Of a stretch of 64,000 bases of DNA, positions 14,516-38,355 are shown in pieces. The stretch is from Oceaniglobus trochenteri (GTDB lineage Bacteria; Pseudomonadota; Alphaproteobacteria; Rhodobacterales; Rhodobacteraceae): assembly GCF_020529025.1 (NCBI RefSeq), contig NZ_JACNMM010000005.1, positions 186,001 to 250,000 on the forward strand, in the 5' to 3' direction. Position numbers and translations under genes: made by a program. The notes below the pieces were generated by a model. It did no database searches, was not told the origin of the DNA, and saw only the letters and a program-made list of their open reading frames with translations. Positions within the stretch are counted from its first letter, which is position 1, and each line of letters begins with the position of its first letter.

Positions 14516-14681
14516 AGAATGTCCCCAGTCGGTTCGTCGGCACCCGGCAGCGGTGCCACAGCAGCAGCCCCATCTTGCAACACCGCCCTGCCCGCGCAAA
14601 CAGATATGGCATCGACAATGCGCGACCGTCGGTTCAGTGTTGCCCGATCACAACCCAACCCGACGCGGGGCGGCTGAGACG

Positions 14682-16357: not shown

Positions 16358-19300
16358 ATGAGCAAGGCGAACACGAACAAGGGCGAAGACATCGCCATTG
16401 TCGGCATGGCGCTGACGGTTCCGGGGGCCGCATCGCCCGCCGCCTACTGGCAGAACCTGCGCAACGGCATCGAATCCATCCGCCACCTGTCGGAAGAGGA
16501 GTTGCTGGCCAACGGCGAATCCGCCGCCAACATCCAGCGCAAGAACTATGTGCTCGCCGCCGCCGTTCTGGAGGATTTCGACTGTTTCGATGCCGATTTC
16601 TTCGGCTTTTCCCCGAAAGAGGCGGCAATCCTAGACCCGCAGCACCGCAAGTTTCTGGAAACGGCCTGGGAAGCGATGGAAAGCGCCGGCCACACGCCCG
16701 AGTCGCTGAAGGGTCGGGTCGGGGTCTACGCCGGTTGCGGCATGGGCAGCTATTTCTATTTCAACATCTGCTCGAACCCCGATCTGGTGGACGACACCGG
16801 CATGTTCCTGCTGCGCCACACCGGCAACGACAAGGATTTCCTGTCGACCCGCGTGTCCCATATCTTTGACCTGAACGGGCCCAGCATCAACCTGCAGACC
16901 GCCTGCTCCACCTCGCTTGTCGCGGTGCATTATGCCTGCAAGGCGCTGAACGACGGCGAATGCGACATGGCGCTGGCCGGTGGCGTCACCATCGAGCTGC
17001 CCCACGCCCGGGGATACGAGTTCAAGGAAAACGAAATCCTGTCGCCCGACGGCCATTGCCATGCCTTCGACCACCGCGCCCAGGGCACCGTCTTTGGCAG
17101 CGGCGCTGGCACCGTGGCGCTGCGTCGCCTTTCGGACGCGCTGCGCGACGGCGATCATGTCTGGGCCGTCATCAAGGGCACCGCCGTGAACAACGACGGC
17201 GCCGCCAAGGCCGGATACCTTGCGCCCTCGGTCGATGGCCAGGCCGCCGCGATAGCCCAGGCCTTGCAGACCGCGCAGGTGAACCCCGAAACCATCGGCT
17301 ATGTCGAATGCCACGGCACCGGCACCTACCTGGGCGACCCGATCGAGGTAACGGCTCTGACCGAGGCCTGGCGCCAGCACACCGCCAAGACCGGCTTTGC
17401 CCGCATCGGCAGCGTGAAGACGAATATCGGCCACCTCGACACCGCCGCCGGGGTGGCCGGGCTGATCAAGGCCACCCTTGGCCTGCACCACGCCGAGATT
17501 CCGCCCTCGCTGGGCTATGAAAAACCCAACCCCGCCATCGATTTCGACGCCTCGCCCTTCCGCGTGGCCGATCGCCTTCTGCCTTGGGAAAACACCACCG
17601 GTCCGCGCCGCGCGGCGATCAATGCCCTGGGGGTCGGCGGCACCAATGCCCATGCGATCATCGAAGAGGCGCCCGCCCGTGCCCCCTCGCAGGAACCCGA
17701 TTTTCCCTTCCAGATCCTCACGCTCTCAGCCCGCTCCAGGGCCGCGCTTGACGAACAGTCGGCCAATCTTGCCGCCCACCTGCGCGCCAACCCCGATCAG
17801 GACCTGGCCGATATCGCCCATACCCTGAAAACCGGGCGCCGCGCCTTCGAAAAGCGCCGCACCCTGGTGGCCGAAACCCACGACGAGGCAATCGCACTGC
17901 TGGAATCGGGTGATCCGCGCCGGGTATTCACCCACGACAAGGTGGCCGATACCCCCGACATCGCCTTCATGTTTCCGGGCGGCGGCGCGCAATACCCAGA
18001 CATGGCGCGCGATCTCTACGAAACCGAACCGGTCTTCGCCGAATGGATGGACCGGGGGCTGGATCACCTCCAGCCCCAGCTTGACTACGACATTCGCGCG
18101 CTTTGGCTGCCCGAACCCGAAGACCGCGACGCCGCGGCGAAAACCCTGCAAAAGCCCTCGGTTCAACTGCCGCTGATCATGATCGTCGAATATGCGCTGG
18201 CGCAGCTCTGGCTGTCGTGGGGCGTGAAGCCCAGGGCGATGATCGGCCATTCCATGGGCGAAAACACAGCCGCCTGCCTGGCCGGGGTGATGCGTTTCGA
18301 GGATTGCATTGACTTGGTGCTGCTGCGTGGCCGGCTGTTCGATACCGTCGCGCCGGGCGGCATGCTGTCGATTGCCCTGCCCCTGTCCGAGGTTGAACCG
18401 CTTCTGGACGATGACCTGGACATTGCCAGCGTGAATGGCCCCGCGCTGACCGCCGTGTCGGGGCCGCAGGCGGCGCTTGACCGGCTGGAAGGCGCGTTGA
18501 AGGCGCGCGAGGTGGAATGCCAGCGGATCGCCATCGACATTGCCGCCCATTCGCGGATGCTCGACCCGATCCTGCCGCGCTATCGCGAATTCCTCGCCGG
18601 TCTCGAACTTGCGCCGCCCTCAATGCCGGTGATCTCGAACCGCACGGGCCTGCCCCTGACCGGCGAACAGGCCACCGATCCCGATTACTGGGTCGGGCAG
18701 TTGCGCAATACCGTGCTGTTTGCCGATGGCATCGCGCATCTGGGCGAAAACCCCCGCCGCGTCTACCTTGAGGTCGGGCCGGGCAAGGCGCTGTCGTCGC
18801 TGGCCCAGATGTGCGCCAGCGTGACGCCCAATCAGGTGCTGTCTTCGCTGCGCCACCCCGATCAGGAGATGGCCGACGATGCCTATTTCCTGCAGGTCAT
18901 CGGCCGCCTCTGGGCCACGGGGTACGAGGCCGACTGGCCCCAGATCTGGGGCGAGGCGCGGCGCAACCGCGTGGTTCTGCCCACCTATCCCTTCCAACGC
19001 GCGCGCTATTTCATCGAACCGGGAAAAACCATTGCCGCCGAACAGGTTGCACTGCCCAAACGGCATGACGACCTGTCGGAATGGGGGTGGAAACCGGTCT
19101 GGCGCCCGCGCCTGCCCGGACTTGACGAAGACGTTGAAGAGGCCATCGCAACCCCTTGCAACTGGATCGTTTTTCAGGATGCCATGGGCATTGCGGATGC
19201 ATTGATTGCGCGGCTGCGCGGCGCGGGCCACCGGGTGGTGGCCGTCCGGTCGGGCGATACCTTCGCACGGCTTGACGGCGACGATTACACCCTGGCGCCC

Positions 19301-22300
19301 GAGCGTGGGCGCGAAGGCTATGACAGCCTGCTGGCCGATCTGGCTGCGCGCGATGCCCTGCCGGACCGCATCGCCCATGCCTGGCTTCTGACCGGGAAGG
19401 AAAGCTTCCGCCCCGGCAGCAGTTTCTTTGACCGCAACCAGGAACACGGCTTCTATTCGCTGCTGTTTCTCGCCCAGGCCCTGGCCGATCACGATCTGCC
19501 GCAGGTGCACCTGACCTGTCTCACCAATGGCGCGGCGCAGGTCGAAGACGATACGCTGCCCTATCCCGAAAAGGCGATGGTGTCTGGCCCGCTTGGCGTG
19601 ATCCCCAAGGAACTGCCGGGCGTCACCTGCGCCTGGGTCGACATCGACACGCCCCGCCGCGCCGACCCCGCCGAACTGGCCGAACGCCTGTTGCAGGATC
19701 TGTTGTCGCCGCCCGAAAACACCACCGCCGCCTGGTGCGGCGACAGGCGTTTCGCCCTTGTCCCCCGGCCCGTGACGTTGCCCGCGCCCGAAACCGCGCC
19801 CTGGCGCGATGGGGCCACCTACCTGATCACCGGCGGCTTCGGCGGAATCGCCCTGACCCTGGCGCAGGATCTGATTGCGCGACACGGGGCCAATATCGTG
19901 CTGCTCAGCCGCAGCGCGATGCCCGAGCGCGACGATTGGGACAAGCACCTGCGCACCCACAGCCCCACCGACAAGACCGCCCGCGCCATCACCGCGCTGC
20001 GCCGCCTTGAAGAGGCGGGCGGGCAGGTCATGGTCTGCCAGGGCGATGTCTGCGACGTGGACCAGATGCGCCGCGCCATGGACGCGGCCACCGAACGTTT
20101 CGGCAGGATCGACGGTGTGATCCATGCCGCCGGCGCCATCGACGATGGCCCGCTTCTGTCGAAATCGCGTTTCGAGGTCGAATCCGTCTTTGCGCCCAAG
20201 ATCAACGGCTTGCGGGTGATTGACACGCTGTTTGCGGATGGCGCGCTTGATCTGCTGGTCTTGTTCTCGTCCTCCTCGACCGCGATCCGCGCGGCCGGTC
20301 AGGTCGATTACGTCGCGGCGAACGAATACCTCAACGCCTTCGCCAAGTCGCGTCGCGGTGGGAAAACCCGCGTCGTTTCCATCAACTGGGGCGTCTGGGC
20401 CGACGTGGGGATGGCGGCCGAGGCGACGGCGCAAGACACCACTCCCCCCGAATTCACCGACACCGATCAGCCGCTCTTGCGTCGGGCGGGGTTCGACAGT
20501 GCGGGCAACCGCGTGTTCCTGTCCGATCTTTCCACCAGCCGCGATTGGGTGCTGGATGAACACCGCACCAAGGCGGGCGATGCCCTTCTGCCCGGCACCG
20601 GCTATATCGAGATCGCGGCAGAGGCCCTTGCCGCGCAAGAGGAAAGCCCCGCCTTCGAACTGCACGACCTGACCTTCTTCAGCGCCCTCGACGTGGGCGA
20701 GAAGGGCCGCGAACTGCTGGTGCGCATGGCGCCGGGCGACGATGGCACGACGCTGGAAATCCGCGGCGGCGTGACGGTCGATGGCCGGTTCGGCCACCAG
20801 TTGAACGCGCAGGCCACGCTTCTGCCGCTTCCGGGCGATGCCGGGCGCCTTGACCTGTCCGAGATCGCCGCGCGCTGCCCCCGCCAGGACGACAGCCGCC
20901 ATTCCCCGCAAGAGGCGCAGCTTGCCTTTGGCCCCCGCTGGAACGTCATTGAAAAGATGGCTTTCGGCACGGACGAAGGGCTGGCGCACTTGGCGCTTCC
21001 CCAGGCCTTTTGCTCTGATCTGGCGGACGGGTGGAAGGTGCATCCCGGCCTGATGGATCTGGCCACGGGCTGGGCCATCGCGCTTGCGCCGGGCTATTCT
21101 TCGCAAAACCTCTGGGTGCCGCTGTCCTATGGCACGGTCCGGGTCTTTGCGCCGCTGCCCGCCGAGATTGTCAGCTGGATGCGCCTTGCCCCCGGCACAC
21201 CGCAGGACGGCTATGCCAGTTTCGATGTCACCATCACCGACCGCGACGGCAACATCCTGATCGAAGTCTTTGATTTCGCCATGAAAGAGGTGCAATCCGG
21301 CGCCTTTGCCAAGGGCGGGCCGGTTCCCGCCTCCGAGGTGGTCTTTGCCGATGGCGATACGCGCCCCCGCTCGCCCGAGGAAGAGCGGCTGGCGCAGCTT
21401 GTCGCCCTTGGCATCCGCCCTGACGAGGGGCCCGAGGCGCTGCGCCGGGCGCTGGCCACGGGCCTGCCGCAGATCACGCTGACGCCCCTAGACCTGCCCG
21501 CCCTGATCGCCCGCGCCGATGAACCCCGCCGCGATGCCGGCGCCGAGGGCCAGACCTTCGAGCGACCGCAGCTTGACGGTGATTTCGTCGCCCCCCGCAA
21601 CGCGATCGAGGAAACCCTGGCCGGATTCTGGCAGGGGCTTCTGGGCATCGCGCAGGTGGGGGTCGAGGACAGCTTCTTCGATCTTGGCGGGCACTCGCTG
21701 ATCGCGGTGCGCCTCTTTGCCCAGATCAACAAGGCCTATGGCGTGCAATTCCCCATCTCGACCCTGTTCGAGGCGCCGACAATCGCCGCCTGCGCCGACC
21801 TGATCGCGGCGCGCGTCGGCCATGTGACCGGATCGGCGGGCGATGCCGGCAGCAGCGCCCCGGGCGGCCCCACCTTCGACCACCTCGTCGCCCTCCACCA
21901 GGGCAGCGGCGGGCCGAAATCCCCGATGTTCATCGTCGCCGGCATGTTCGGCAACGTGATGAACCTGCGCCACCTGGGTCTGTCGCTGGGCCAGGACAGG
22001 CCGGTTTACGGGCTTCAGGCGCGCGGCCTTGTGGGCGACGCCGAACCCCACCGCACCATCCCCGAGGCGGCAGCGGCCTATATCGCAGAGATGCGCCAGG
22101 TTCAGCCGCAGGGCCCCTATCTTCTGGGCGGGTTTTCCGGTGGCGGCATCACCGCCTATGAAATGGCCCAGCAGTTGCGCAACATGGGCGAGGCGGTGTC
22201 GGTCCTGGCCCTTCTCGACACGCCGCTGCCGGTGCGCCCCGCGCTCAGCCGCAAGGACAAGGCAATCATCAAGAGCCACGAAATCCGGCGCAAGGGCGTG

Positions 22301-22747
22301 AAATACCTTGGGGAATGGGCCAGGAACCGCATCGCATGGGAACTGGAAAAACGCCGCGCGCCCGAAGCCGCCGCCAGCGACAACGCCTTCGACAACGCCA
22401 AGATCGAGGCGGCCTTCCGCGGCGCGGTCGGATCCTATGACCTGCGCCCCTGGGATGGCCCGCTGACCCTGTTCCGACCGCCGCTTGACCGCCACTGGAA
22501 GGTGTCGGAAGGCAACTGGGTCAGTGCCGCGCGCGAATATGTCTTTGCCGACAACGACTGGACGGCCACCGCCCCGCAGATCGAGGTGATCGAGGTGCCG
22601 GGCGATCACGATTCCATGGTCCTTGTCCCCAACGTCGGCGTTCTGGCGGCCCGCCTGAAACAGGTGATCCGAACCGCCGAACGTGCGCGGCGCCAGGGCG
22701 CGCGCGCCACGGGCGCCCAACGCCCCCGCGCCGAAGCGGCCGAGTGA
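16358..22747 (+). CDS. Type I polyketide synthase, KS-AT-KR-DH-ACP-TE
   Basis: A 2129-residue single-module PKS. KS occupies about residues 10-440, with active-site Cys183 (TACSTS), His319 (CHGTGT) and His359 (NIGHLD). AT spans about 540-860, with Ser632 in GHSMG. KR spans about 1150-1380, with TYLITGGFGGIA, an IDD variant of the B-type LDD motif, and a catalytic Tyr in VDYVAANEYL. DH spans about 1390-1640, with His1402 and Asp1567 in HPGLMDLA. ACP carries Ser1780 in GGHSLIA. A C-terminal thioesterase has Ser1927 in GFSGGG and a late His in PGDHDSM. All catalytic residues are present, so it should extend, reduce, dehydrate and release one chain. KR before DH is unusual for a modular PKS. AT specificity is unclear (IAAHS at the HAFH/YASH position). 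Start: ATG after AAGGGGG; the frame also stays open upstream to 16241. Confidence 0.93.
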   Translation: MSKANTNKGEDIAIVGMALTVPGAASPAAYWQNLRNGIESIRHLSEEELLANGESAANIQRKNYVLAAAVLEDFDCFDADFFGFSPKEAAILDPQHRKFLETAWEAMESAGHTPESLKGRVGVYAGCGMGSYFYFNICSNPDLVDDTGMFLLRHTGNDKDFLSTRVSHIFDLNGPSINLQTACSTSLVAVHYACKALNDGECDMALAGGVTIELPHARGYEFKENEILSPDGHCHAFDHRAQGTVFGSGAGTVALRRLSDALRDGDHVWAVIKGTAVNNDGAAKAGYLAPSVDGQAAAIAQALQTAQVNPETIGYVECHGTGTYLGDPIEVTALTEAWRQHTAKTGFARIGSVKTNIGHLDTAAGVAGLIKATLGLHHAEIPPSLGYEKPNPAIDFDASPFRVADRLLPWENTTGPRRAAINALGVGGTNAHAIIEEAPARAPSQEPDFPFQILTLSARSRAALDEQSANLAAHLRANPDQDLADIAHTLKTGRRAFEKRRTLVAETHDEAIALLESGDPRRVFTHDKVADTPDIAFMFPGGGAQYPDMARDLYETEPVFAEWMDRGLDHLQPQLDYDIRALWLPEPEDRDAAAKTLQKPSVQLPLIMIVEYALAQLWLSWGVKPRAMIGHSMGENTAACLAGVMRFEDCIDLVLLRGRLFDTVAPGGMLSIALPLSEVEPLLDDDLDIASVNGPALTAVSGPQAALDRLEGALKAREVECQRIAIDIAAHSRMLDPILPRYREFLAGLELAPPSMPVISNRTGLPLTGEQATDPDYWVGQLRNTVLFADGIAHLGENPRRVYLEVGPGKALSSLAQMCASVTPNQVLSSLRHPDQEMADDAYFLQVIGRLWATGYEADWPQIWGEARRNRVVLPTYPFQRARYFIEPGKTIAAEQVALPKRHDDLSEWGWKPVWRPRLPGLDEDVEEAIATPCNWIVFQDAMGIADALIARLRGAGHRVVAVRSGDTFARLDGDDYTLAPERGREGYDSLLADLAARDALPDRIAHAWLLTGKESFRPGSSFFDRNQEHGFYSLLFLAQALADHDLPQVHLTCLTNGAAQVEDDTLPYPEKAMVSGPLGVIPKELPGVTCAWVDIDTPRRADPAELAERLLQDLLSPPENTTAAWCGDRRFALVPRPVTLPAPETAPWRDGATYLITGGFGGIALTLAQDLIARHGANIVLLSRSAMPERDDWDKHLRTHSPTDKTARAITALRRLEEAGGQVMVCQGDVCDVDQMRRAMDAATERFGRIDGVIHAAGAIDDGPLLSKSRFEVESVFAPKINGLRVIDTLFADGALDLLVLFSSSSTAIRAAGQVDYVAANEYLNAFAKSRRGGKTRVVSINWGVWADVGMAAEATAQDTTPPEFTDTDQPLLRRAGFDSAGNRVFLSDLSTSRDWVLDEHRTKAGDALLPGTGYIEIAAEALAAQEESPAFELHDLTFFSALDVGEKGRELLVRMAPGDDGTTLEIRGGVTVDGRFGHQLNAQATLLPLPGDAGRLDLSEIAARCPRQDDSRHSPQEAQLAFGPRWNVIEKMAFGTDEGLAHLALPQAFCSDLADGWKVHPGLMDLATGWAIALAPGYSSQNLWVPLSYGTVRVFAPLPAEIVSWMRLAPGTPQDGYASFDVTITDRDGNILIEVFDFAMKEVQSGAFAKGGPVPASEVVFADGDTRPRSPEEERLAQLVALGIRPDEGPEALRRALATGLPQITLTPLDLPALIARADEPRRDAGAEGQTFERPQLDGDFVAPRNAIEETLAGFWQGLLGIAQVGVEDSFFDLGGHSLIAVRLFAQINKAYGVQFPISTLFEAPTIAACADLIAARVGHVTGSAGDAGSSAPGGPTFDHLVALHQGSGGPKSPMFIVAGMFGNVMNLRHLGLSLGQDRPVYGLQARGLVGDAEPHRTIPEAAAAYIAEMRQVQPQGPYLLGGFSGGGITAYEMAQQLRNMGEAVSVLALLDTPLPVRPALSRKDKAIIKSHEIRRKGVKYLGEWARNRIAWELEKRRAPEAAASDNAFDNAKIEAAFRGAVGSYDLRPWDGPLTLFRPPLDRHWKVSEGNWVSAAREYVFADNDWTATAPQIEVIEVPGDHDSMVLVPNVGVLAARLKQVIRTAERARRQGARATGAQRPRAEAAE

Positions 22748-23742
22748 CGATGCCCAGCCTGCTGACCGTCCTTCTGAACTTTCGCACCGCGCCGATGACC
22801 CTGCGCGCAGCCGAAGCCGCCCTTGCCGACATGAAGGCGACAGGGGGCGAATTGGTGATCGTCGACAACGATTCCGGCGATGGCAGCTTTGAAATGCTGC
22901 GGGATGCGGCCGATGCCCGGGGCTGGACGGACGGCGGGCGCGTGCGTGTCGTTCAGGCCGGGCGGAACGGCGGCTTTGGCGCGGGCAACAACCACGGCAT
23001 CCGCGCGGGCCTGTCCGACGGCACCGCCCCCGATTACGTCTATATCCTGAACTCCGACGCCTTTCCCGATCCGGGCTGCATCAACACGTTGATGGCCTTT
23101 CTCGAACAGACGCCCGGCGCCGGTTTTGCGGGCAGCCATGTGCGCGGCGAGGATGACGTGACCCATTGCACCGCCTTCCGCTTCCCCTCGATCGCCGGAG
23201 AGTTCGAGGGCGCCGTGCGCACCGGTATCGTTTCGCGCCTTCTGAAACATGCCATTGTCGCCCTGCCCGTTCCACAAAGCGCGCAGCGCGTCGATTGGGT
23301 GGCGGGGGCCAGCCTGATGGTGCGGTGCAGCGCGCTGCATGACATCGGGCTGTTCGACGAAACCTTCTTTCTTTATTTCGAGGAAACCGACCTGGCCCGC
23401 CGCGCCGCCAATGCCGGATGGGAGACGTGGTACATTCCCGAAAGCCGGGTGGTGCATATCGGCTCGGTCTCGACCGGCATGAAGACCTGGCGGCGGATGC
23501 CGCGCTACTGGTTCGATTCCCGGCGCCATTACTTCGTCAAGAACCACGGCAGGCTTCGCTACGGCCTGGCCACCGCCGCGCTGATCTCGGGCGCCGCGCT
23601 GTGGCGGTTGCGCTGCGCGGTGCAGCGCCGCCCCCTGCGCGACCCCGATCATTTCCTGCGCGACCTGATCGCCCATACCTTCGGGCTTTTGCCCGAACCC
23701 ATGCCCAAAACCGCCACCCCCCGCAGCGAGGACCGCACATGA
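22744..23742 (+). CDS. Family 2 glycosyltransferase (rhamnosyltransferase-like)
   Basis: A 332-residue GT2 enzyme resembling WbbL-type rhamnosyltransferases. It has VIVDNDSGDGSFEML, the nucleotide-sugar contact GGFGAGNNHGI, the metal motif ILNSDAFPDPG near residue 105, and the acceptor-side motif FFLYFEETDLARR near 215. The GTG at 22744 overlaps the PKS stop by 4 bases; an in-frame ATG lies two codons later (22750). Its own stop overlaps the NRPS start by 4 bases. This insertion between PKS and NRPS, fully coupled to both, suggests that the assembly-line product and a sugar meet in one pathway. Donor and acceptor are not known. Confidence 0.85.
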   Translation: MTMPSLLTVLLNFRTAPMTLRAAEAALADMKATGGELVIVDNDSGDGSFEMLRDAADARGWTDGGRVRVVQAGRNGGFGAGNNHGIRAGLSDGTAPDYVYILNSDAFPDPGCINTLMAFLEQTPGAGFAGSHVRGEDDVTHCTAFRFPSIAGEFEGAVRTGIVSRLLKHAIVALPVPQSAQRVDWVAGASLMVRCSALHDIGLFDETFFLYFEETDLARRAANAGWETWYIPESRVVHIGSVSTGMKTWRRMPRYWFDSRRHYFVKNHGRLRYGLATAALISGAALWRLRCAVQRRPLRDPDHFLRDLIAHTFGLLPEPMPKTATPRSEDRT

Positions 23743-26700: not shown

Positions 26701-28235
26701 CGATGAAGGCCTATCTGCGCAGCGCGGCGGGCCTGATCAAGCAATATGCCTGGGCCTTCCCGGCCTTCAAGCGGCCTGCAGGCGTGACCAACCCCTTCGA
26801 GGTTGACCTGGGCGGCCTGGCCGAGGACGAGATGGAGGCGATCCTGGATTTCGCCTTCCAGCGCTATTTCGAGGATTCGGGCCTCTTTGGCACTGTCGAG
26901 GATGCCGTGGCACGGGCCGAGCAGCTGAAGCGCATCGGCGTCGATGAAATCGCCTGCCTGATCGATTACGGCATTGCGCCCGAAGTGGTGATGGAGGGGC
27001 TGAAACCCCTGGCCGAGGCCCTGCGCCTGACCAACACCGCCACCGCCCCGGCCGAGGATGATTTCTCGATCGCCGCGCAGATCCGCCGCCACGGGGTGAC
27101 GCATGTGCAATGCACCCCGTCGATGGCGCGGATGATCGCGCTGAACGACGACGCCCGCCAGTCTCTGGGCCGGATCAGGACACTGATGATCGGGGGCGAG
27201 GCTTTGCCGGGCGATCTTGTGAAATCCCTGCATGGCGCGACAAGGGCACGGATCCTGAACATGTACGGCCCGACAGAGACCACCATCTGGTCGACCGTGC
27301 AAAGCGTGGATGACGACCCCGACATTCAGCCCATCGGCACACCCATCGCCAATACCCAGGTCTATGTCCTTGATCCGCAAGGCAACCCGGCACCCACCGG
27401 AGTGGCAGGAGAACTGTTCATCGGCGGCGAGGGTGTGACGCGTGGCTATTGGCAGCGCGACGCCCTGACCGCCGAACGCTTCCCCGACAACCCGTTCCAC
27501 GGCGGGCGGATGTATCGCACCGGCGATCTTGTGCGCTGGCGCGCCGATGGCACGCTCGATTTCCTGGGGCGCAGCGATCACCAGGTGAAGATCCGCGGCC
27601 ACCGCATCGAACTGGGCGAGATCGAGGCGCGGCTGGCAGAACACCCCGCCGTGAAACAGGCGGTGGTGGTGGCCCGCGACATGGGCGGCGATACGCGGCT
27701 GGTGGCCTATGCCATCGCGCCGGGCTTCGATGAAGCCGCCATGCGCGCCCATCTGGCCGCCCTGCCCGACATCATGATCCCGGCGCATCTGGTCACGCTG
27801 GATCAATTCCCGCTGACGCCGAACAAGAAGGTCGACCGCAACGCCCTGCCCGACCCGAAACCGGCCCGCCCGCCCCGTGCCGCCAACCTGGGCGCGGCGC
27901 CCGACAACCCGGTGCAGGCCGCCATCGCCGCGGTCTGGTCGCGCATCCTGGGGGTGGGCGACATCCGCGCCGAGGACAACTTCTTCGCCCTCGGCGGGCA
28001 TTCGCTGCTGGCGGTGCAGGCACATCGCGAAATCCGCGCCGCGCTGGACGACGTGGCGCTGTCGATCACCGACATCTTCCGCTTTCCCACGCTGGGCGGG
28101 CTGGCGGCGCATCTGACCAAGGGGCAGCCGGGCGGCGACGCTGCGCCCGAAAGGGTTGACGACAGCCCCGCACGGGCAGAAACCATGTCGCGGCGGCGCG
28201 CCATGCGCGCCGGCCGCGGAGCCAAGACAGGATGA
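23739..28235 (+). CDS. NRPS module: formyltransferase, adenylation domain with inserted luciferase-like monooxygenase, PCP
   Basis: A 1498-residue protein. Residues 1-190 form a formyltransferase with the Asn87-His89-Asp125 triad (NFHDG, IDEGDIL). About 195-295 resemble its C-terminal subdomain. About 305-495 look like the second half of a condensation domain, with no HHxxxDG. Adenylation starts near 505 with A3 LIYTSGSTGLPKG (655) and A4 SFDISVLEL (702). About 735-1085 form a luciferase-like flavin monooxygenase (MDFNLFYWGND, WTPERHFHAFGGPYPNPS). Adenylation resumes near 1107, with A5 MYGPTETT and A10 NKKVDRNALP. PCP has Ser1422 (GGHSLLA). The ten-residue code reads DILQMGMIWK, close to the glycine code DILQLGLIWK. 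There is no complete condensation domain and no thioesterase, so it probably loads glycine and may formylate it, as in the LgrA initiation module. The flavin domain could hydroxylate the bound amino acid. It overlaps both neighbours by 4 bases. Confidence 0.9.
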   Translation: MTHFSTVLIGDESLLIGCGDMLLARGHAIAAVVSRDPAITSWAEGKGLPLLARAGDIDTAFDWLLSIANLSVIPDAVLARAGKGAVNFHDGPLPQMAGLNTPAWARMRGHSSHGITWHVIEGGIDEGDILEQRAFPIAPEDTAFTLNSKCYGAAMDSFPALIDQLESGLKRQPQDLSQRHYFARDDRPENGGFLDFSQPQEVLIALVRGLDFNGYKNPLTCAKIAGPDLPLLVDAIEPAEGTGSPGTVLASGGDGVTVACADGALRLSGLTNPLGQAVSARSMPAVGTVIAPGAVGDTGALVAGEGYWRARLKTAQPFPLPLAAPLGATQDWQSRPLNLPVQDRTALIALLAQWARLSSGEVAGDIGFTSAALVGHVQAAPGLVATTAFLRIPEGDTAGIEAAIAPQLEKIARHPGFLRELFTRDPDISLARPGIALSEQGTVYGTAITVTLDDTTLHYDANRLGAAAIDLLIARLLHLAEGGSGLPESERDALIESRNATATDHDRSLTIHAAFEAQVARTPDAPALVFEGETLSYRALNAAANRMAHALRDMGVAPGANVGLCVNRSPDLLIGALGILKAGGAYVPLDPAYPADRIAHYVTDSRAAVIVAQPGLVASLPESDAQVLVTDDARIAAAPDTNPEGGAAPGDLAYLIYTSGSTGLPKGVMVEHRNVANFFVGMDQRIDHEAGAVWLAVTSLSFDISVLELFWTLARGFKLVLSSDENRTLIAGDTPARSDRHMDFNLFYWGNDDGAGPKKYELLLEGAKFADAHGFNAIWTPERHFHAFGGPYPNPSVTGAAVAAVTQNLSVRAGSCVAPLHHPARIAEEWAVIDNLTAGRAGLAIASGWQPDDFVLRPENTPPANKPAMFEAIDTLRRLWRGEAVEFPTKDGTPFAVVTQPRPVSAELPVWVTTAGNPDTWREAGSIGANVLTHLLGQSIEEVAGKITIYNDALREAGHDPADHKVTLMLHTYLADDRETAREVAREPMKAYLRSAAGLIKQYAWAFPAFKRPAGVTNPFEVDLGGLAEDEMEAILDFAFQRYFEDSGLFGTVEDAVARAEQLKRIGVDEIACLIDYGIAPEVVMEGLKPLAEALRLTNTATAPAEDDFSIAAQIRRHGVTHVQCTPSMARMIALNDDARQSLGRIRTLMIGGEALPGDLVKSLHGATRARILNMYGPTETTIWSTVQSVDDDPDIQPIGTPIANTQVYVLDPQGNPAPTGVAGELFIGGEGVTRGYWQRDALTAERFPDNPFHGGRMYRTGDLVRWRADGTLDFLGRSDHQVKIRGHRIELGEIEARLAEHPAVKQAVVVARDMGGDTRLVAYAIAPGFDEAAMRAHLAALPDIMIPAHLVTLDQFPLTPNKKVDRNALPDPKPARPPRAANLGAAPDNPVQAAIAAVWSRILGVGDIRAEDNFFALGGHSLLAVQAHREIRAALDDVALSITDIFRFPTLGGLAAHLTKGQPGGDAAPERVDDSPARAETMSRRRAMRAGRGAKTG

Positions 28236-28954
28236 TTGCGATTTCCGACTTTTCCATCTCTGACGGCCCGATGTCGGGTGCCATGGTCGAACCCGCGGCG
28301 CGCGGCCTGTTTGCCGATGACATCGCCATTGCCCTGTGCGACCCGCGCGCGCCCATGGGCAACCTGCTGATGCCCGAACGCAGCGGGATGACCCGCATGG
28401 TGGCCAAGCGGCAGCTTGAATTCACCGCCGGGCGCATCGCGGCCCATCGTGCCATGGCCGCCCTTGGCCAACCCGCGCAGCCCGTGATGCCCGGCCCCGA
28501 CCGCGCGCCGATCTGGCCCGCCGGTCTTGTGGGCAGCCTTTCGCATTGCGACAGCCTGTGCCTCTGCGCCATGGCCCATGCGCGCGATGTCCGCACCCTT
28601 GGCGTGGATGTCGAAGAGGACGAACCGCTCGACCCCGAGATGATCGACCTGATCTGCACCAGCCCTGAACGCAACTGGCTGGGCGCGCAGCCGGGTGCCG
28701 AACAGGGCCGCCTGGCCAAACTGATCTTCTCGGCCAAGGAAACCGCCTACAAGGCGCAATACCCCCTGTCGCGCGAGGTTCTGGATTTCCAGGCCATCGC
28801 CATTCTGCCCGATCTTGCCGGCGGGATCTTCGCCACCACCTTTACCCGCGCGGTCGGCCCCTTCGCCTCGGGCAGCCGGATGCAGGGGCGGTTCGCGCGC
28901 AGCCACGGCCTGATCCTGACCGGCCTGACCCTGCGGCACCCCGGGGGCGGCTGA
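28232..28954 (+). CDS. 4'-phosphopantetheinyl transferase (EntD/Sfp type)
   Basis: A 240-residue PPTase of the EntD-like group. It moves phosphopantetheine from CoA onto the serine of carrier proteins. The motifs are GSLSHCDSLCLCAMA (near residue 105), the metal-binding GVDVEEDEPL (near 128), and FSAKETAYKAQYPL (near 170). The gene overlaps the NRPS by 4 bases, so its natural targets are surely the ACP (Ser1780) of the PKS and the PCP (Ser1422) of the NRPS. Its presence means the operon carries its own activation enzyme. The next gene starts inside its stop codon (TGATG). Confidence 0.92.
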   Translation: MIAISDFSISDGPMSGAMVEPAARGLFADDIAIALCDPRAPMGNLLMPERSGMTRMVAKRQLEFTAGRIAAHRAMAALGQPAQPVMPGPDRAPIWPAGLVGSLSHCDSLCLCAMAHARDVRTLGVDVEEDEPLDPEMIDLICTSPERNWLGAQPGAEQGRLAKLIFSAKETAYKAQYPLSREVLDFQAIAILPDLAGGIFATTFTRAVGPFASGSRMQGRFARSHGLILTGLTLRHPGGG

Positions 28955-29907
28955 TGGGCGGGCCGTCGCGCCGGGCCGCCCTTGCGCTGCTGGCGGCGGC
29001 GGGCGGTGGCTTTGCCCTTGGCAGCCTGCACCGCCCCGCCCGCCTTCCCGGCCCGGTCGCGGTGGCCGCCGCCTATCAGACCCCCCTGCCCACACCCCGG
29101 CGCGGGCTGAACGTCTTTCATCTGGGCCACAGCCTGGTGGGCCGCGACATGCCCGCCATGCTGGCGCAACTGGCCGGTGAGGGGCATCGGTATCACAGTC
29201 AGTTGGGCCAGGGCACCGCGCTGCGCCAGCATTGGTATCCGGGCCTGCCGGTTCAGGGCTTTGCCAGCGAAAACGCCCATGACAGGTTTCGCCCCGCCCA
29301 TGGCGCCATCGGTTCGGGCGATTACGACGCCGTGATCCTGACCGAGATGGTCGAGCTTCTGGATGCCCTGAAATACCACGAAAGCGGCCCCTACCTGACC
29401 CGCTGGGCCGATCTGGCGCGCGGCGCCAACCCCACCACCCGCGTCTATCTTTACGAAACCTGGCATGGGCTGGACGATTCGGGCGGGTTTCTGGCCCGGC
29501 TCGATGCCGATATCGAACGGCTGTGGGTGGGCGAGCTGCTGGCCCATGACCTGTCCACCGCGCCGCCCCGCCCGATCCATCTGATCCCGGCGGGGCAGGT
29601 TCTGGCCCGCGTGGTGCGCGCGATCGAATCCGACCCCCTTCCCGGCCTGGCCCGGCGCGAGGATCTCTTCGCCCTTGCCCCCGATGGCAGCCGCGATCCG
29701 ATTCACCTGAACGATATCGGCGCCTACCTCGTGGCTGTCACCCATTTCGCAACGCTCTATCACCGCCCGCCCCTTGGCCTGCCGCACCGCCTTCTGCGCG
29801 CCGATGGCACGCCCGCCGATGCGCCCGGCGCGGCCGCCGCCGCCCTGATCCAAAGGCTGGCCTGGGAGGTGGTGCGCGCCGATCCGCGCACGGGCGTCCC
29901 CGCATGA
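28954..29907 (+). CDS. Exported SGNH-hydrolase-like protein
   Basis: A 317-residue protein. The N-terminus has a hydrophobic leader with a possible twin-arginine motif (PSRRAALALLAAAGGGFALG). The core has a GDSL/SGNH-type nucleophile, FHLGHSLVGRDMPAM (Ser in GHSL near residue 57). A late DPIHLNDIGAYLVAV supplies the Asp and His of the triad. SGNH enzymes remove or transfer acetyl and other acyl groups on glycans or lipids. The same pattern, with the ending GLPHRLLRA, is found in the N-terminal half of the next gene, so the two are tandem paralogues. An acyl-esterase or acyltransferase acting on the exported glycan is plausible. The exact reaction cannot be read. Confidence 0.65.
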   Translation: MGGPSRRAALALLAAAGGGFALGSLHRPARLPGPVAVAAAYQTPLPTPRRGLNVFHLGHSLVGRDMPAMLAQLAGEGHRYHSQLGQGTALRQHWYPGLPVQGFASENAHDRFRPAHGAIGSGDYDAVILTEMVELLDALKYHESGPYLTRWADLARGANPTTRVYLYETWHGLDDSGGFLARLDADIERLWVGELLAHDLSTAPPRPIHLIPAGQVLARVVRAIESDPLPGLARREDLFALAPDGSRDPIHLNDIGAYLVAVTHFATLYHRPPLGLPHRLLRADGTPADAPGAAAAALIQRLAWEVVRADPRTGVPA

Positions 29908-32246
29908 GCCTGCTCTCGACCCTCTCGGCCGTCCTGATGGTGGGCCATTCGCTGATCGGCCCCGATCAACCCGGAATGCTGGAACAGCTGTTGCAGGCCG
30001 GTGGCGCCGACACCCGGGTCGAGGCGCAGATCATCAACGGCGCCCCCCTGAAATGGAACTGGGATCACTCGGCCGAGGCCGAAGGCGTGGATGCCCGCGC
30101 CGCCCTGCCCGGCGGCACCGACGCCCTGATCCTGACCGAGGCGATCCCGCTTGCCAACCATCTGCAGTGGAGCGACAGCACCGGTTACGCCGCGCGCTTT
30201 GCCGATCTTGCGCGCCAGGGAAACCCCGAAGTGCGGGTTTTCGTTCTGGAAACCTGGCATTCGCTGAACAGCGGCACCGGCGTGGATGTGCCCCACGACA
30301 CCGGCGCCGCCACCCCCTGGCGCGACCGGATCGCCGATGACCTGCCGCTGTGGCAAGACCTGGCCGAGGCGGCGGGCGCCACCCTTGTTCCCGCCGGTCA
30401 GGCCATGGGGCAACTTTCGGACGCCATCGCTGCGGGCGAGGCGCCGGGGCTGGGCGATATCGGCGATCTGTTCGACGACGACATTCACCCCAACGACCTG
30501 GGCCATTACTTCGTGGCGCTGGTCAGCTATGCCATGCTCAGCGGGCAGGACCCGACGGGCTTGCCCCACCGGCTGCGCGGGCGCCATGACCGGGCGCTGG
30601 TTTCGGCCGATCCGGCACTGATCGCCCGGATGCAGGGCATCGCCACCGAAGTCGCGCGCAACGTCACGCCCGCACAAGAGGCCCGCAGGACGCCGCAACC
30701 CACCGCCCCCCCGCAGCCCGCGCCCCCAGCGCGGCAGGGCGACATGGCGGTGAACCTAGCCGCCATCACCGATTGGAGCGTGCAGCTGCCGTTCCTCGAC
30801 CTGATGAAGACCGCCCGCCCCTGGATCGGTCACAGGCCGGGCCAATGGGGCGGGGTCGAAACCGCTGCCCTGCGCGACTCTGGTCTGCTGGACGAAAACG
30901 GCTGGCCCACCCGCCTGCCCCGCGATCTGGGCAGCATCGGCACCCTGATCCTGACCGACCTGCCCGAGGATGCGGCGGGGGCGGCCGGATCGTATCTTCT
31001 GCGTTTTCAGGGCAAGGGCATCGTCGAGGTGTCGGGCCGCGCCCGCAATCAGCGCTATGGCAAGAATGCCGTAACCTTCGATTTCACCCCCGGCCCCGGC
31101 CCGGTGGAAATTCGCATCCAGCGCACCGATCCTGCCGATCCGGTGCGCGCCATCACCGTTGTGCGGGCCGACCGGGTGGCCGATTTCGACGCCGGGGCGC
31201 TGTTCAACCCCGACTGGCTGGCGCTGCTGGATGGTTTCCGGGTGCTGCGGTTCATGGATTGGATGGCCACCAACAATTCCACCCAGGTGCACTGGCAGGA
31301 TCGCCCCCGCCCCGGTGATTACACCTACGCGGAAAAGGGCGTGCCGGTCGAAGTACTGATCGCGCTGGCCAACCGGCTGAAGGCCGATCCCTGGTTCACC
31401 CTGCCCCACATGGCCGACGATGCCTATGTCCGCGCCTTTGGCGAAGCGGTGCGCGCGGGTCTGGCCCCCGACCGGCAGGTCATCGCGGAATATTCCAACG
31501 AGGTCTGGAATTGGCAATTCGACCAGGCGAAATGGGCCCGCGAACAGGCCGCCGCCCGCTGGTCCGAGCCTGACGCGGGCCACCAGTTCTACGGCATGCG
31601 CGCGGCGGAGGTGGCGAATATATGGTCCTCGATCCTGCCCGAGGACCGGCTGATCAACGTGATCGCGACCCAGACCGGCTGGCTGGGCCTGGAAGAGGCG
31701 ATCCTGACTGCCCCGCTTTCGGTGGCCGAGGGGAACGCCCGGCCCGCCGACGCCTTCGATGCCTATGCCATCACCGGCTATTTCGGCGGCATCCTGGGCA
31801 CCGAGGCGCGCGCGCCCCTGCTGCGCGGCTGGCTGGCAGAGGGTGAGGCCACCGCGCTTGCCGCGAAAGAGCTGCGCGATGGCAGCGTCACCGGCGATGC
31901 CACCGACACGCTGTCCGACCTGCTGAACCGGGTTCTGCCCCATCACAAGGCAGTGGCCGACAGATACGGGTTGCGCCTTGTCATGTATGAAGGCGGCACG
32001 CATCTGACCGGCATCGGCCCCATGGCGGATGACGCGGCGCTGAGCGATTTCTTCATCCGCTTCAATTATTCGCCCGAGATGGGCGCGCTGTACCGTGATC
32101 TGATCGCGGGATGGTATGCGCTGGGGGGCGAGATGTTCAACGTCTTCAACGATGTCTATGCCCCCACCAAATGGGGAAGCTGGGGCGCACGCCGCCATCT
32201 GGGCGATGACAACCCCCGCTGGCAGGCCATCGAGGCGGCGAGATGA
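29904..32246 (+). CDS. SGNH-like domain fused to a clan-A-like glycosidase barrel
   Basis: A 780-residue two-part protein. Residues 1-250 repeat the SGNH-like pattern of the preceding gene: MVGHSLIGPDQPGML, VFVLETWHSL and DDIHPNDLGHYFVAL. An Ala/Pro/Gln-rich linker (about 255-280) follows. The C-terminal 500 residues resemble a glycoside hydrolase of the clan A barrel type. VIAEYSNEVWNW places a candidate acid/base Glu533 after Asn, and LVMYEGGTHL gives a candidate nucleophile Glu696. No signal peptide is seen, as the protein opens directly on the SGNH motif; this is odd next to an exported paralogue. It may process or remodel the polymer inside the cell, or its start may lie elsewhere. It overlaps both neighbours by 4 bases. 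Confidence 0.62.
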   Translation: MSLLSTLSAVLMVGHSLIGPDQPGMLEQLLQAGGADTRVEAQIINGAPLKWNWDHSAEAEGVDARAALPGGTDALILTEAIPLANHLQWSDSTGYAARFADLARQGNPEVRVFVLETWHSLNSGTGVDVPHDTGAATPWRDRIADDLPLWQDLAEAAGATLVPAGQAMGQLSDAIAAGEAPGLGDIGDLFDDDIHPNDLGHYFVALVSYAMLSGQDPTGLPHRLRGRHDRALVSADPALIARMQGIATEVARNVTPAQEARRTPQPTAPPQPAPPARQGDMAVNLAAITDWSVQLPFLDLMKTARPWIGHRPGQWGGVETAALRDSGLLDENGWPTRLPRDLGSIGTLILTDLPEDAAGAAGSYLLRFQGKGIVEVSGRARNQRYGKNAVTFDFTPGPGPVEIRIQRTDPADPVRAITVVRADRVADFDAGALFNPDWLALLDGFRVLRFMDWMATNNSTQVHWQDRPRPGDYTYAEKGVPVEVLIALANRLKADPWFTLPHMADDAYVRAFGEAVRAGLAPDRQVIAEYSNEVWNWQFDQAKWAREQAAARWSEPDAGHQFYGMRAAEVANIWSSILPEDRLINVIATQTGWLGLEEAILTAPLSVAEGNARPADAFDAYAITGYFGGILGTEARAPLLRGWLAEGEATALAAKELRDGSVTGDATDTLSDLLNRVLPHHKAVADRYGLRLVMYEGGTHLTGIGPMADDAALSDFFIRFNYSPEMGALYRDLIAGWYALGGEMFNVFNDVYAPTKWGSWGARRHLGDDNPRWQAIEAAR

Positions 32247-33070
32247 GCCTTTCGGTCATCCTGCCCGCCCATGACGAGGCCGGGTATCTGGCCGCCTGCC
32301 TTTCGGCGCTTCTGCGGTCCGACGGGGTGGCGGGGCAGATCGTCGTGGTGGCCAACGGATGCCGTGACGATACCGCCACCGTGGCGCGCCGTTTCGCGCA
32401 AGAGGCCGCGCGCCGGGGCTGGACGCTGAACGTGATCGAAACGCCCGAGGGTGGCAAGCTGAACGCGATGAACCTGGGCGATGGCGCCGCCACGTGGGAT
32501 CTGCGGCTTTATCTCGACGCCGATGTCATCGTTTCGCCCCCGCTGCTGGCACAGATCGTCGAAGCGCTGGGGCAGCCCGCGCCGCGCTATGCCACCGGAT
32601 CGCCCCGCGTCAGCCGGGCGCAAAGCCCCGTCACCCGCGCCTATGCCCGGTTCTGGTCCGGCCTGCCCTTCGTCACCCATGGCGCGCCGGGCTTCGGGCT
32701 TTATGCCGTCAACGCCGCCGGGCGGGCGCGCTGGGGGGCCTTTCCCGACATCATCTCGGACGATACCTTCGTGCGGTTGCAGTTTGCCCCCGAAGAACGG
32801 CTACGCCTGCCCGCCACCTATGATTGGCCCATGGTCGAGGGGTTTGCCAACCTCGTGCGCGTGCGCCGCCGCCAGAACATCGGCGTGGAGGAGATTGCCC
32901 GCCATCACCCCGACCTTCTGGCCAATGACGATGCGCGCCATCTGGGCGCGGGCGGGGTGTTGCGGCGGCTGTTTCGCGATCCGGTGGCCTTCGCGGTCTA
33001 TGCCGCGATCACGCTGGCGGTGAAATCACCGCTTTTTGCCAATGCCGGGCGCTGGGTGCGCGGGCGTTAG
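32243..33070 (+). CDS. Family 2 glycosyltransferase
   Basis: A 275-residue GT2 enzyme. It opens with SVILPAHDEAGYLAACLSAL and QIVVVANGCRDDT, and has GGKLNAMNLGD, the metal motif YLDADVIV near residue 92, and an ISDDTFVRLQF acceptor motif. A short hydrophobic segment (AVYAAITLAV) near the C-terminus suggests membrane contact. It is the last gene of the coupled PKS-NRPS chain, starting within the previous stop (4-base overlap). Its own stop overlaps that of the convergent GT4 gene by 4 bases. The substrate is unknown. Confidence 0.85.
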   Translation: MSLSVILPAHDEAGYLAACLSALLRSDGVAGQIVVVANGCRDDTATVARRFAQEAARRGWTLNVIETPEGGKLNAMNLGDGAATWDLRLYLDADVIVSPPLLAQIVEALGQPAPRYATGSPRVSRAQSPVTRAYARFWSGLPFVTHGAPGFGLYAVNAAGRARWGAFPDIISDDTFVRLQFAPEERLRLPATYDWPMVEGFANLVRVRRRQNIGVEEIARHHPDLLANDDARHLGAGGVLRRLFRDPVAFAVYAAITLAVKSPLFANAGRWVRGR

Positions 33071-34272: not shown

Positions 34273-34466
34273 GAGGGCAGTCCTTGCAGTGAAATTGGCG
34301 ATCCCGGTACAGGTATACAGGACAACCGAAGATTGTGGTCATTTCTTGCTATCACACAGTGGTCGCTTCGCGGCGCAACTGTGGCATTTAACGGGAAAAT
34401 CACGGGGAATAGTGCTGGCCACCGGCCCGGGTTGCCCCATAAACACAGGGGGCAAGGGGGACGGGC

Positions 34467-38209: not shown

Positions 38210-38355
38210 CGCTTGACCATTCTGCGTCTGGGCCAATGCCCTGCCACGCCCCGAAAGACGCCAGAGCACCGGATCAGGGCCGACACTCGCGGATCAAAGC
38301 GGCAGCCGTAAGGCAGCCACACGGCGACTATCTGGCCAAGCCCGGCCCTGCCCCG

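Follow-up and report, generated by a model that had tools for sequence, protein, structure and literature searches.

An NRPS-PKS assembly line that co-occurs with exopolysaccharide genes and may supply an acyl group to a surface glycan

The stretch of DNA analysed here (64,000 nt, hereafter the window) contains a predicted hybrid NRPS-PKS assembly line whose genes are in strict co-occurrence with those of one flippase and one polymerase-like protein. We consider it probable that this locus makes a Wzx/Wzy-type exopolysaccharide and that the repeat unit of this polymer carries an acyl group derived from the locus's own NRPS-PKS line. Such an antibiotic-style line, usually classed among drug-like metabolite clusters, appears to serve many bacteria of marine and fresh waters in making a glycine-started acid that ends up in their surface sugar coat.

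Gene chain and surrounding glycan locus

Positions 16358-33070 of the window are occupied by a single overlapping chain of genes for a PKS, a glycosyltransferase, an NRPS, a PPTase, an SGNH protein, an SGNH-glycosidase and a second glycosyltransferase, in which assembly-line and glycan enzymes are mixed and consecutive genes overlap by 1-4 nt each, with start codons chosen by us. The initial annotation had named a PKS, a glycosyltransferase, an NRPS-like module, a PPTase, two SGNH-like proteins and another glycosyltransferase in this chain, all of which are present at the coordinates it gave. It had also placed the chain inside a glycan locus, in agreement with the WecG, Wzy-like, GT4, Wzx, Wzz-like, CpsD-like and ExoY-like genes that flank it. 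The features are as follows:

11806..12819, forward strand: GT2-type glycosyltransferase GT2a of the outer glycan locus (PF13704, E 1.7e-19)
12816..13757, forward strand: GT2 glycosyltransferase GT2b (PF00535, E 1.1e-13)
13763..14599, reverse strand: WecG/TagA/CpsF glycosyltransferase, start codon uncertain (PF03808, E 1.2e-44)
14682..16130, forward strand: Wzy-like polymerase candidate (weak PF04932 match; start read at 14682)
16358..22747, forward strand: type I PKS (Pfam domains)
22744..23742, forward strand: GT2 glycosyltransferase GT2c, between PKS and NRPS (PF00535)
23739..28235, forward strand: NRPS (PF00551, PF02911, PF00501, PF00296, PF00550 and TIGR04020; 13-protein alignment; formyltransferase fold)
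25959..27032, forward strand: LLM (MOX) domain within the A domain of the NRPS (TIGR04020; PDB 6ket)
28232..28954, forward strand: Sfp-type 4'-phosphopantetheinyl transferase (PF17837, PF01648)
28954..29907, forward strand: SGNH-type hydrolase or acyltransferase, orfA (likeness to the next gene; motifs)
29904..32246, forward strand: SGNH domain followed by a glycosidase-like barrel of clan GH-A type
32243..33070, forward strand: GT2 glycosyltransferase GT2d (PF00535, E 2.9e-16)
33067..34272, reverse strand: GT4-type glycosyltransferase (PF13692, PF00534)
34467..35828, forward strand: Wzx, MOP-family flippase (PF13440, E 4.9e-47)
35839..37143, reverse strand: putative Wzz-type chain-length regulator (TIGR03007, 92 bits, below the cut-off of 278.85)
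37256..38269, reverse strand: CpsD/CapB-like tyrosine kinase (weak CbiA match; named from an orthologue)
38356..39120, reverse strand: ExoY-like undecaprenyl-phosphate sugar transferase (PF02397, E 1.6e-56)

The WecG gene exceeded the cut-off of TIGR00696 (90.7 bits, cut-off 69). The Wzy-like protein has 8 hydrophobic stretches and matched PF04932 with 18.3 bits, below the cut-off of 31.7, and the name of the CpsD-like kinase stems from its orthologue in locus L139, which is annotated as CpsD/CapB. An open reading frame at 33124-34470 on the forward strand (orfB) was rejected, being antisense to the GT4 gene.

Predicted functions of the NRPS, PKS and SGNH proteins

The NRPS consists of a formyltransferase, a middle stretch, an A domain with an inserted luciferase-like monooxygenase (LLM) and a PCP, so that the NRPS-like module of the initial annotation is present and gains in detail by its N-terminal formyltransferase and the monooxygenase inside its A domain. 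The formyltransferase had LgrA as its best PDB match and showed a formyltransferase fold in structure comparison, and its N, H and D residues, which we take by their spacing relative to E. coli FMT to be the catalytic triad, were present in all 93 surveyed loci (91 distinct, since the survey contains two duplicate pairs). For the stretch that follows (model pLDDT 92), a remnant of a condensation domain had been expected, but its fold comparison was filled by formyltransferase. PF00668 was absent from the NRPS of the window in the Pfam scan; a condensation domain is not required by a starter module. The 107 residues upstream in the listed NRPS reading frame were not counted as protein; homologues begin near 23739.

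The LLM insert covers NRPS residues 741-1098, matches PDB 6ket, lies between motifs A4 and A5 (motifs placed by eye) and scored 479 bits with TIGR04020 (MupA/Atu3671; curated cut-off 244). The A-domain code, aligned by eye to the GrsA positions, reads DILQMGMIWK in the window and DILQ[M/L/F/Y]GMIWK across loci, and it looks like a glycine code. It agrees with the code for glycine domains with MOX in PMC12283262, where DILQLGMIWK is given for four such domains. The PCP serine was unchanged in all 13 aligned NRPS proteins.

The PKS has the Pfam domain order KS-AT-psiKR-KR-DH-ACP-TE. Wherever they were covered, in 87 to 93 of the 93 loci (91 distinct), its catalytic residues were unchanged, except that the first KR catalytic position varies between S, T and C; PCP and ACP sites in this survey were taken from the best-matching carrier of each locus. 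Judged by the catalytic residues present in its A, PCP, KS, AT, ACP and TE domains, the pair is predicted to form a hybrid NRPS-PKS line.

As for the two SGNH proteins, orfA matched no Pfam family and is called SGNH because of its likeness to the N-terminal domain of the next gene and its motifs GHSL and DPIHLN (Ser and Asp/His); its N-terminus is Tat-like by eye, and matches to it were found in 11 of 61 genomes, every one inside the 16-genome set described below. The SGNH-barrel protein (29904-32246) gave just a sub-cut-off GDSL match in Pfam, while its C-terminal part adopts a (beta/alpha)8 barrel fold of clan GH-A, with N532, E533 and E696, candidates for the Asn-Glu acid/base and the Glu nucleophile of the clan, present in all 14 proteins.

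Co-occurrence with glycan genes in relatives

Orthologues of NRPS, PKS, GT2c, the Wzy-like protein and Wzx occupy an identical set of 16 out of 61 genomes without discordance at the cut-offs used, this set being the high-scoring subset, for which the NRPS, PKS and GT2c cut-offs (at least 340 bits for GT2c) were set after the scores were known. The raw tallies were 24 for NRPS, 24 for PKS, 16 for Wzy-like, 17 for Wzx and 19 for GT2c. Within the set, the NRPS is cut or split in three genomes (G005, G014, G033) and the PKS in two (G014, G033); uncounted were a divergent NRPS/PKS on a 6.8-kb contig (G027), three GT2c rows of low score (no higher than 103 bits) and a match to Wzx of 24% identity (G043). 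In 159 genomes spanning 158 genera, a set that overlaps with the former, the Wzy-like gene was found in 55 and Wzx in 53 of the 57 genomes with the NRPS (Fisher p about 2e-31, shared descent not corrected for). Wzx matches were missing in G088, G152, G161 and G188 and Wzy-like matches in G152 and G161. The partner was more than 30 kb away or on another contig for 9 of 55 Wzy-like and 9 of 53 Wzx genes, and the pairs on different contigs may be near neighbours divided by draft assembly. Based on these co-occurrence tests, the chain and the glycan genes are found together beyond chance, and the expectation that PKS/NRPS and wzx genes travel together in other Rhodobacterales was confirmed by all three results (16 of 61, 53 of 57 and 55 of 57).

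Gene order was compared in 80 loci which, being the best 80 of at least 587 relatives, lean towards close relatives. The order PKS-GT2c-NRPS-PPT was found in 71 of these best 80 and PKS-GT2c-NRPS in 6 more, placing GT2c between PKS and NRPS in 77, and this unit is kept while its surroundings are rearranged. Among the same best 80 of at least 587, GT2c was present in 79, the PPTase gene in 73, Wzz-type matches in 51 (with identities as low as 23%), GT4 in 44, GT2d in 43, GT2b in 39, the ExoY-like gene in 14 and GT2a, near the NRPS, in 5. At least three of ten glycan families adjoin 64 of these 80 loci versus none of 12 other NRPS loci, a comparison made with HMMs built from the loci themselves and with control stretches (11.9-19.9 kb) shorter than most of the 80 loci; one or more core glycan families lay near 5 of the 12 controls. 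Orthologous PKS/NRPS genes standing apart from glycan genes, which according to the initial annotation would speak against the link, were not clearly encountered: 3 of the best 80 loci had none of the ten families within the fetched stretch, of which two (L061, L103) run into the end of a contig and one (L107) adjoins ManC and an acyltransferase. Exopolysaccharide genes also adjoin a similar PKS and NRPS pair in Shinella, Aminobacter, Rhizobium, Methylobacterium and Hydrogenophaga. G152 and Aliiroseovarius L144, both divergent at 45-49% identity, pair an FT-A-LLM protein with a different PKS/NRPS of 3,082-3,095 aa, and the glycan families were not found in the fetched stretch.

In a tree of the Wzy-like protein, for which 2 of 65 rows were left out as duplicates, 54 rows from PKS loci and genome G116 are separated from seven rows without PKS by a branch with support of 100/98. 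Locus L128, which has PKS and NRPS, nevertheless places its Wzy-like gene on the side without PKS, on a long branch. Eight genomes with a Wzy-like gene and no full-length NRPS match were considered as possible counter-examples and set aside, since seven of them group separately with L128 and the remaining one, G116, holds a stripped assembly line. Sulfotransferases were found in 4 of the 7 sister loci without PKS/NRPS versus 0 of 103 PKS loci (the latter including the two duplicate pairs as well as G000 and G116).

Genome G116 has kept most glycan genes. In its line, formyltransferase, KS, AT, KR and DH no longer have their active sites and the LLM domain is missing altogether, while catalytic residues are retained in the glycine A domain, the PKS-ACP and the thioesterase. 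This pattern hints at glycine loading followed by thioesterase transfer to the glycan, in a Dlt-like manner. G116 may represent a naturally shortened line that runs from A(Gly) over PKS-ACP to TE and amounts to glycylation; this genome leans towards decoration of the glycan over a glycosylated small molecule. The alternative is decay, which is possible given that this is one genome only and that its PKS frame contains a stop codon. When its neighbours were drawn from the Wzy tree, in place of an earlier six picked by A, ACP and TE similarity and thus biased to those domains, the distance ratio of the TE (2.27) was similar to those of KR (2.22), DH (2.02) and FT (1.85), and retention of the TE is therefore not shown by rates alone.

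Proposed pathway, alternatives and known systems

In the proposed pathway, the PPTase would prime PCP and ACP, the A domain would load glycine, the formyltransferase would cap its amine, and the inserted LLM monooxygenase would hydroxylate the glycyl or acyl carbon. KS and AT would then add at least one malonyl unit, to be reduced by KR and DH, and the C-terminal thioesterase would transfer the resulting acid either to the lipid-linked repeat unit, on a sugar for which GT2c or GT2d may be responsible, or to the corresponding nucleotide sugar. Wzx would flip and the Wzy-like protein polymerise the acylated unit, and the SGNH and SGNH-barrel proteins might trim or deacylate the polymer. It counts against the transfer step that type I thioesterases often simply hydrolyse. 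The earlier suggestion that a small acid decorates the glycan, or is itself glycosylated and exported, is supported in so far as the genes travel together; the product and its attachment are what we infer.

It is unlikely that the product is a siderophore, antibiotic or signal secreted as a free metabolite, and that the line lies close to exopolysaccharide genes only owing to a common surface or biofilm role. A free metabolite would fit the FT-A-LLM relatives that occur with the 3,082-3,095 aa PKS/NRPS, where the fetched stretch showed none of the glycan families, and the apparent Paracoccus and Roseibaca versions are presented as bioactive-metabolite clusters in the literature. Against it stand the identical genome sets of the line and the flippase and polymerase-like genes, the co-occurrence that persists where the genes are not close, the overlap of the chain with glycosyltransferases and the comparable pairs seen in Hydrogenophaga and in other orders. 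As the scanned window ORFs (part of all ORFs) included no gene for a siderophore receptor or for siderophore transport, the siderophore reading was demoted to a rival. A pathway that builds or modifies a sugar precursor, with the formyltransferase acting on an amino sugar and the remainder of PKS/NRPS supplying an unusual backbone, is very improbable: the formyltransferase is fused to A-PCP as in the linear gramicidin synthetase LgrA and the F-A(Gly) loader of conglobatin (PMC4504003), in which the formyl group goes to the amino acid on the carrier, as demonstrated for linear gramicidin and proposed for conglobatin. There is also a small chance that the acid, rather than being a repeated substituent, is the part that receives sugar and ends the chain as a cap or anchor, forming a glycolipid-like product that Wzx would flip. 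The placement of GT2c, as if acting on the product, in 77 of the best 80 of at least 587 loci is in line with this, as is a PKS that could work iteratively to give a longer chain. Against it, an ExoY-type initiator and a Wzy-like gene that tracks PKS and NRPS suggest that the whole repeat unit depends on the line, and G116, if functional, would yield a glycyl group alone, a poor anchor.

Acylation of the repeat unit remains our preferred reading, and it can be compared with several known systems. The locus resembles Wzx/Wzy-dependent exopolysaccharide or capsule pathways in uniting a flippase, a chain-length-type protein, WecG, an ExoY-type initiator and several glycosyltransferases. In those pathways the donors of decorations are usually acyl-CoA, pyruvate or sulfate, whereas here a complete NRPS-PKS line lies within the locus and co-occurs with it. 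The Dlt system (DltA, DltC, DltB and the SGNH-type DltD) carries out D-alanylation of teichoic acids and is similar in that a small amino acid destined for a surface polymer is loaded onto a carrier by an adenylation domain and an SGNH-type protein is involved. It differs in that here the amino acid is predicted to be glycine, formylated, oxidised, PKS-extended and delivered by a thioesterase; moreover, the Pfam scan, which covered part of the window ORFs, showed no MBOAT protein (DltB). G116 comes near to Dlt logic. Like the loading modules of CongA, OzmO and LgrA, the NRPS combines a formyltransferase, an A domain and a PCP feeding a KS; according to PMC4504003, conglobatin CongA and oxazolomycin OzmO have F-A(Gly)-PCP loading modules, with glycine being a prediction for CongA. 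Here, in contrast, an LLM lies in the A domain, there is one PKS protein with a TE, and the genes lie in a polysaccharide locus, not in an antibiotic cluster. The A-MOX glycine domains of PMC12283262 share the code and the embedded MOX, but there the MOX acts in cleaving the backbone to leave a terminal amide, whereas that of the present NRPS belongs to a formylating first module that precedes a PKS.

Related clusters seem to be already in print. PMC10584327 describes, in Roseibaca relatives, a hybrid NRPS-like/T1PKS with a 4,527-nt NRPS and a 6,333-nt PKS about 993 nt apart; this hybrid occurs in up to 18 of 37 species as the commonest novel hybrid of the survey and is interpreted there as antibiotic or antitumour potential. 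The Roseibaca hybrid and that of Paracoccus marcusii CP157 are probably the same gene unit as the one here. The words "polysaccharide" and "glycosyltransferase" do not occur in the text of PMC10584327, nor does "exopolysaccharide" in that of PMC8273931, and among the matches listed from the openly licensed PMC literature no paper ties an NRPS/PKS to a Wzx/Wzy repeat unit. A more far-reaching version of our reading, of which we are a little less than half convinced, is a heteropolysaccharide with an obligatory repeat-unit component from a dedicated NRPS-PKS line, namely an N-formylglycine-primed, oxidised polyketide acid, with flippase and polymerase having evolved around this product; G116 would then be a Dlt-like reduction of the line to glycine adenylation, carrier and thioesterase, and the unit that the survey's commonest novel hybrid appears to match would be a surface-polymer pathway and not one for an antibiotic.

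If true, the proposal would join two separate fields, assembly-line natural products and bacterial surface polysaccharides. An acylated polysaccharide would be cell-bound, so that searches in culture extracts would be misdirected. For a large group of mostly aquatic bacteria, the locus would further give a means of studying a surface glycan, with G116 as a possible natural reduced version, and the sulfotransferase-bearing sister loci predict alternative decorations.

Gene content of the locus

A 377-kb contig (G000:C28) of a Rhodobacteraceae-type genome contains the window, and clpX, clpP, glycerol kinase and ispG genes border the locus. The initial annotation had placed a PKS/glycosyltransferase/NRPS/PPTase/SGNH chain inside a glycan locus, and gene calls together with Pfam and NCBIfam domains confirmed and slightly extended this description. 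Seven genes, whose neighbours overlap by 1-4 nt, form the chain:

16358-33070, + strand: PKS, glycosyltransferase GT2c, NRPS, PPTase, SGNH protein (orfA), SGNH-barrel protein, glycosyltransferase GT2d

Around it are genes for WecG, a Wzy-like membrane protein, GT4, Wzx and Wzz-like, CpsD-like and ExoY-like proteins. By Pfam and NCBIfam, the PKS has the order KS-AT-KR-DH-ACP-TE, and the NRPS consists of a formyltransferase (FT), an A domain interrupted by a TIGR04020 luciferase-like monooxygenase (LLM) and a PCP. The product of 29904-32246 joins an SGNH domain to a glycosidase-like barrel without a Pfam or NCBIfam match, possibly a glycosidase family absent from these lists. The genome of the window also has a separate NRPS region (L175, G000:C30:164000-183900) near a sugar-transferase-like gene (238 bits), so the occurrence of assembly lines next to glycan genes may be wider.

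Association with the polysaccharide genes

Comparative genomics strongly supports the view that the assembly line is very probably tied to one particular polysaccharide system. High-scoring orthologues of the NRPS, PKS, Wzy-like protein, Wzx and GT2c occurred in the identical 16 of 61 genomes and in none of the 45 others, with cut-offs for NRPS, PKS and GT2c chosen after the scores had been seen; the raw tallies of this set also include further genes of the NRPS, PKS and glycosyltransferase kinds, as well as a divergent pair in G027. An even sample of the family, 159 genomes from 158 genera, contained 57 genomes with the NRPS, 63 with the Wzy-like gene and 58 with Wzx. NRPS and Wzy-like gene were both present in 55 and both absent in 94, with the NRPS only in two and the Wzy-like gene only in eight (Fisher p 2e-31, not adjusted for shared descent); NRPS and Wzx were both present in 53. 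The NRPS was within 30 kb of the Wzy-like gene in 46 of the 55 genomes, farther away on the same contig in three (52, 178 and 419 kb) and on another contig in six; for Wzx, the corresponding numbers were 44, two (1.5 and 1.9 Mb) and seven of 53. Pairs on different contigs may reflect draft breaks, but those far apart on one contig show that these genes are retained jointly even when they are not adjacent.

A genome contig scan provided the named loci, the best 80 of at least 587 relatives, 77 of them titled with genera which we take to belong to Rhodobacterales and three with Hydrogenophaga. Among these best 80, close matches to the window were present for PKS (78), GT2c (79) and PPTase (73), and the order PKS-GT2c-NRPS-PPTase was found in 71, PKS-GT2c-NRPS in six and an incomplete order in three, with many loci truncated at contig ends. 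Of ten glycan families, at least three were present in 64 of the best 80, two in seven and one in six, and none in the fetched stretches of three (L061, L103, L107). Control loci of other NRPS genes contained at least three families in 0 of 12 cases versus 64 of 80, and at least one core family in 5 of 12 versus 76 of 80, a contrast somewhat flattered by HMMs built from the named loci and by shorter control stretches.

The surroundings of the PKS-GT2c-NRPS unit are rearranged from genome to genome, so that shared gene order alone is insufficient to explain the link between PKS/NRPS and glycan genes. On Shinella and Aminobacter plasmids, PKS and NRPS genes are divergently placed, again amid flippase, glycosyltransferase and export genes. 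In Rhizobium and Methylobacterium, a PKS/NRPS pair adjoins Wzx- and WecG-like genes or a set of GT4, DegT aminotransferase, epimerase and a Wzz/kinase-like protein (Wzz score 25.0 bits, below the cut-off of 25.5). In the exopolysaccharide locus of Hydrogenophaga pseudoflava, the unit adjoins WecG, GT4 and a sugar transferase, and beside it is a second NRPS (L082:16607-22609) that reads AMP-binding, PCP, C, A, PCP, TE.

Sister loci and departures from the pattern

Seven genomes (G102, G103, G112, G122, G146, G174, G186) have Wzy-like and GT2c-like genes within one stretch, where neither a KS nor an A domain was found. In a tree of 63 Wzy-like proteins, one branch (support 100/98) splits 55 rows (54 from PKS loci, and G116) from the seven sister genomes and L128, a locus which has PKS/NRPS yet groups, on a long branch, with the seven rows lacking a PKS. 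The sister locus of G186 (L162-L163, G186:C13) encodes four sulfotransferases and one exosortase. Sulfotransferases of this type occurred in 4 of 7 sister loci versus 0 of 103 PKS loci, using a profile seeded from G186 and stretches of unequal length. This suggests that sulfate may serve as a decoration in place of the assembly-line product.

G152 and an Aliiroseovarius locus (L144) encode a related FT-A-LLM protein (45-49% identity) together with a PKS/NRPS of 3,082-3,095 aa, and none of the glycan families was found in the fetched stretches:

L144:13504-27243: FT-A-LLM protein and PKS/NRPS of about 3,090 aa, outside a glycan locus
G152:C1: the same pairing, outside a glycan locus

This arrangement is possibly an ancestral metabolite pathway.

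One further genome carries a reduced assembly line:

G116:C17:130000-166000 (L148-L149): locus with reduced assembly line

It retains the majority of the glycan genes, namely Wzy-like, WecG, GT4, GT2b, kinase, Wzz, GT2c, Wzx, GT2d and SGNH-barrel genes; ExoY-like and orfA genes were not found in this 36-kb stretch. The assembly line persists as long open frames, with one stop codon in the PKS frame, between KR and DH. Lost are N, H and D of the FT, the KS Cys and both His, the AT Ser and His, the KR Tyr, the DH His, the LLM domain between A4 and A5, and the serine of the NRPS PCP. Still intact are the A domain, including its glycine code, the serine of the PKS ACP and the TE triad.

Table. Domains of G116: identity to the window (mean of other loci); distance ratio, with neighbours picked from the Wzy tree. 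psiKR is the PKS domain before KR.
A: 0.62, 0.62 (0.65, 0.65); 1.69, 1.42
ACP: 0.61 (0.64); 1.84
TE: 0.56 (0.64); 2.27
KR: 0.40 (0.56); 2.22
DH: 0.32 (0.48); 2.02
FT: 0.31 (0.54); 1.85
AT: 0.30 (0.67); 2.64
KS: 0.21 (0.74); 5.75
psiKR: ratio 1.37

Judged by sequence divergence, KS and AT are clearly freed from constraint and the A domain is conserved. The TE is accelerated as much as KR and DH, and it is marked out by its intact triad. We read this one genome as having kept glycine loading and thioesterase delivery and lost the extension chemistry, although plain decay of the line is possible.

Predicted product and published readings

The 93 loci compared (91 distinct) have invariant catalytic residues in FT, A, PCP, KS, AT, DH, ACP and TE, and an invariant tyrosine in KR, wherever these sites are covered; the first KR position varies between S, T and C. 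The A-domain code, its positions placed by eye against GrsA, is D-I-L-Q-[M/L/F/Y]-G-M-[I/V]-W-K. According to PMC12283262, its four glycine domains with such a monooxygenase (MOX) all have DILQLGMIWK. Conglobatin is a proposed precedent for N-formylglycine starting a PKS (PMC4504003), and the PuwE monooxygenase domain, with an aminotransferase, is assigned to the 3-amino-2-hydroxy acyl group of puwainaphycin (PMC4219810). The single PDB match of the LLM region among the best 60 of 183 was 6ket, whose chain is named PuwE. Intact catalytic sites, the code shared with MOX-bearing glycine domains and these precedents together make a small N-formylglycyl-derived hydroxy acid, containing one or more malonyl units, the likely product. 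It would probably be bound covalently within the repeat unit, and the full mechanism, an assembly-line acyl group built into that unit, seems reasonably probable. In its workings, the locus would resemble a Dlt system extended by a PKS, although we do not class it as a member of the Dlt family. The parts of this system are known; their combination is new.

Similar clusters have been read otherwise. PMC10584327 describes an NRPS-like/T1PKS hybrid from 18 of 37 species and suggests antibiotic or antitumour peptides for it; in Roseibaca domitiana, the two genes measure 4,527 and 6,333 nt, with about 993 nt between them. From size and order, we infer that this hybrid is the PKS-GT2c-NRPS unit of the window, perhaps not in all 18 species. 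A Paracoccus marcusii CP157 plasmid cluster is described similarly (PMC8273931). No polysaccharide role is given for the cluster in the available parts of either source, and none of the papers listed in our literature searches joins this kind of assembly line to a polysaccharide. One of our plasmid matches (H12) has the same host source as the plasmid of PMC8273931 and is about equal in size. In a P. marcusii plasmid locus (L140:1-2552), a further adenylation-domain protein is encoded next to WecG.
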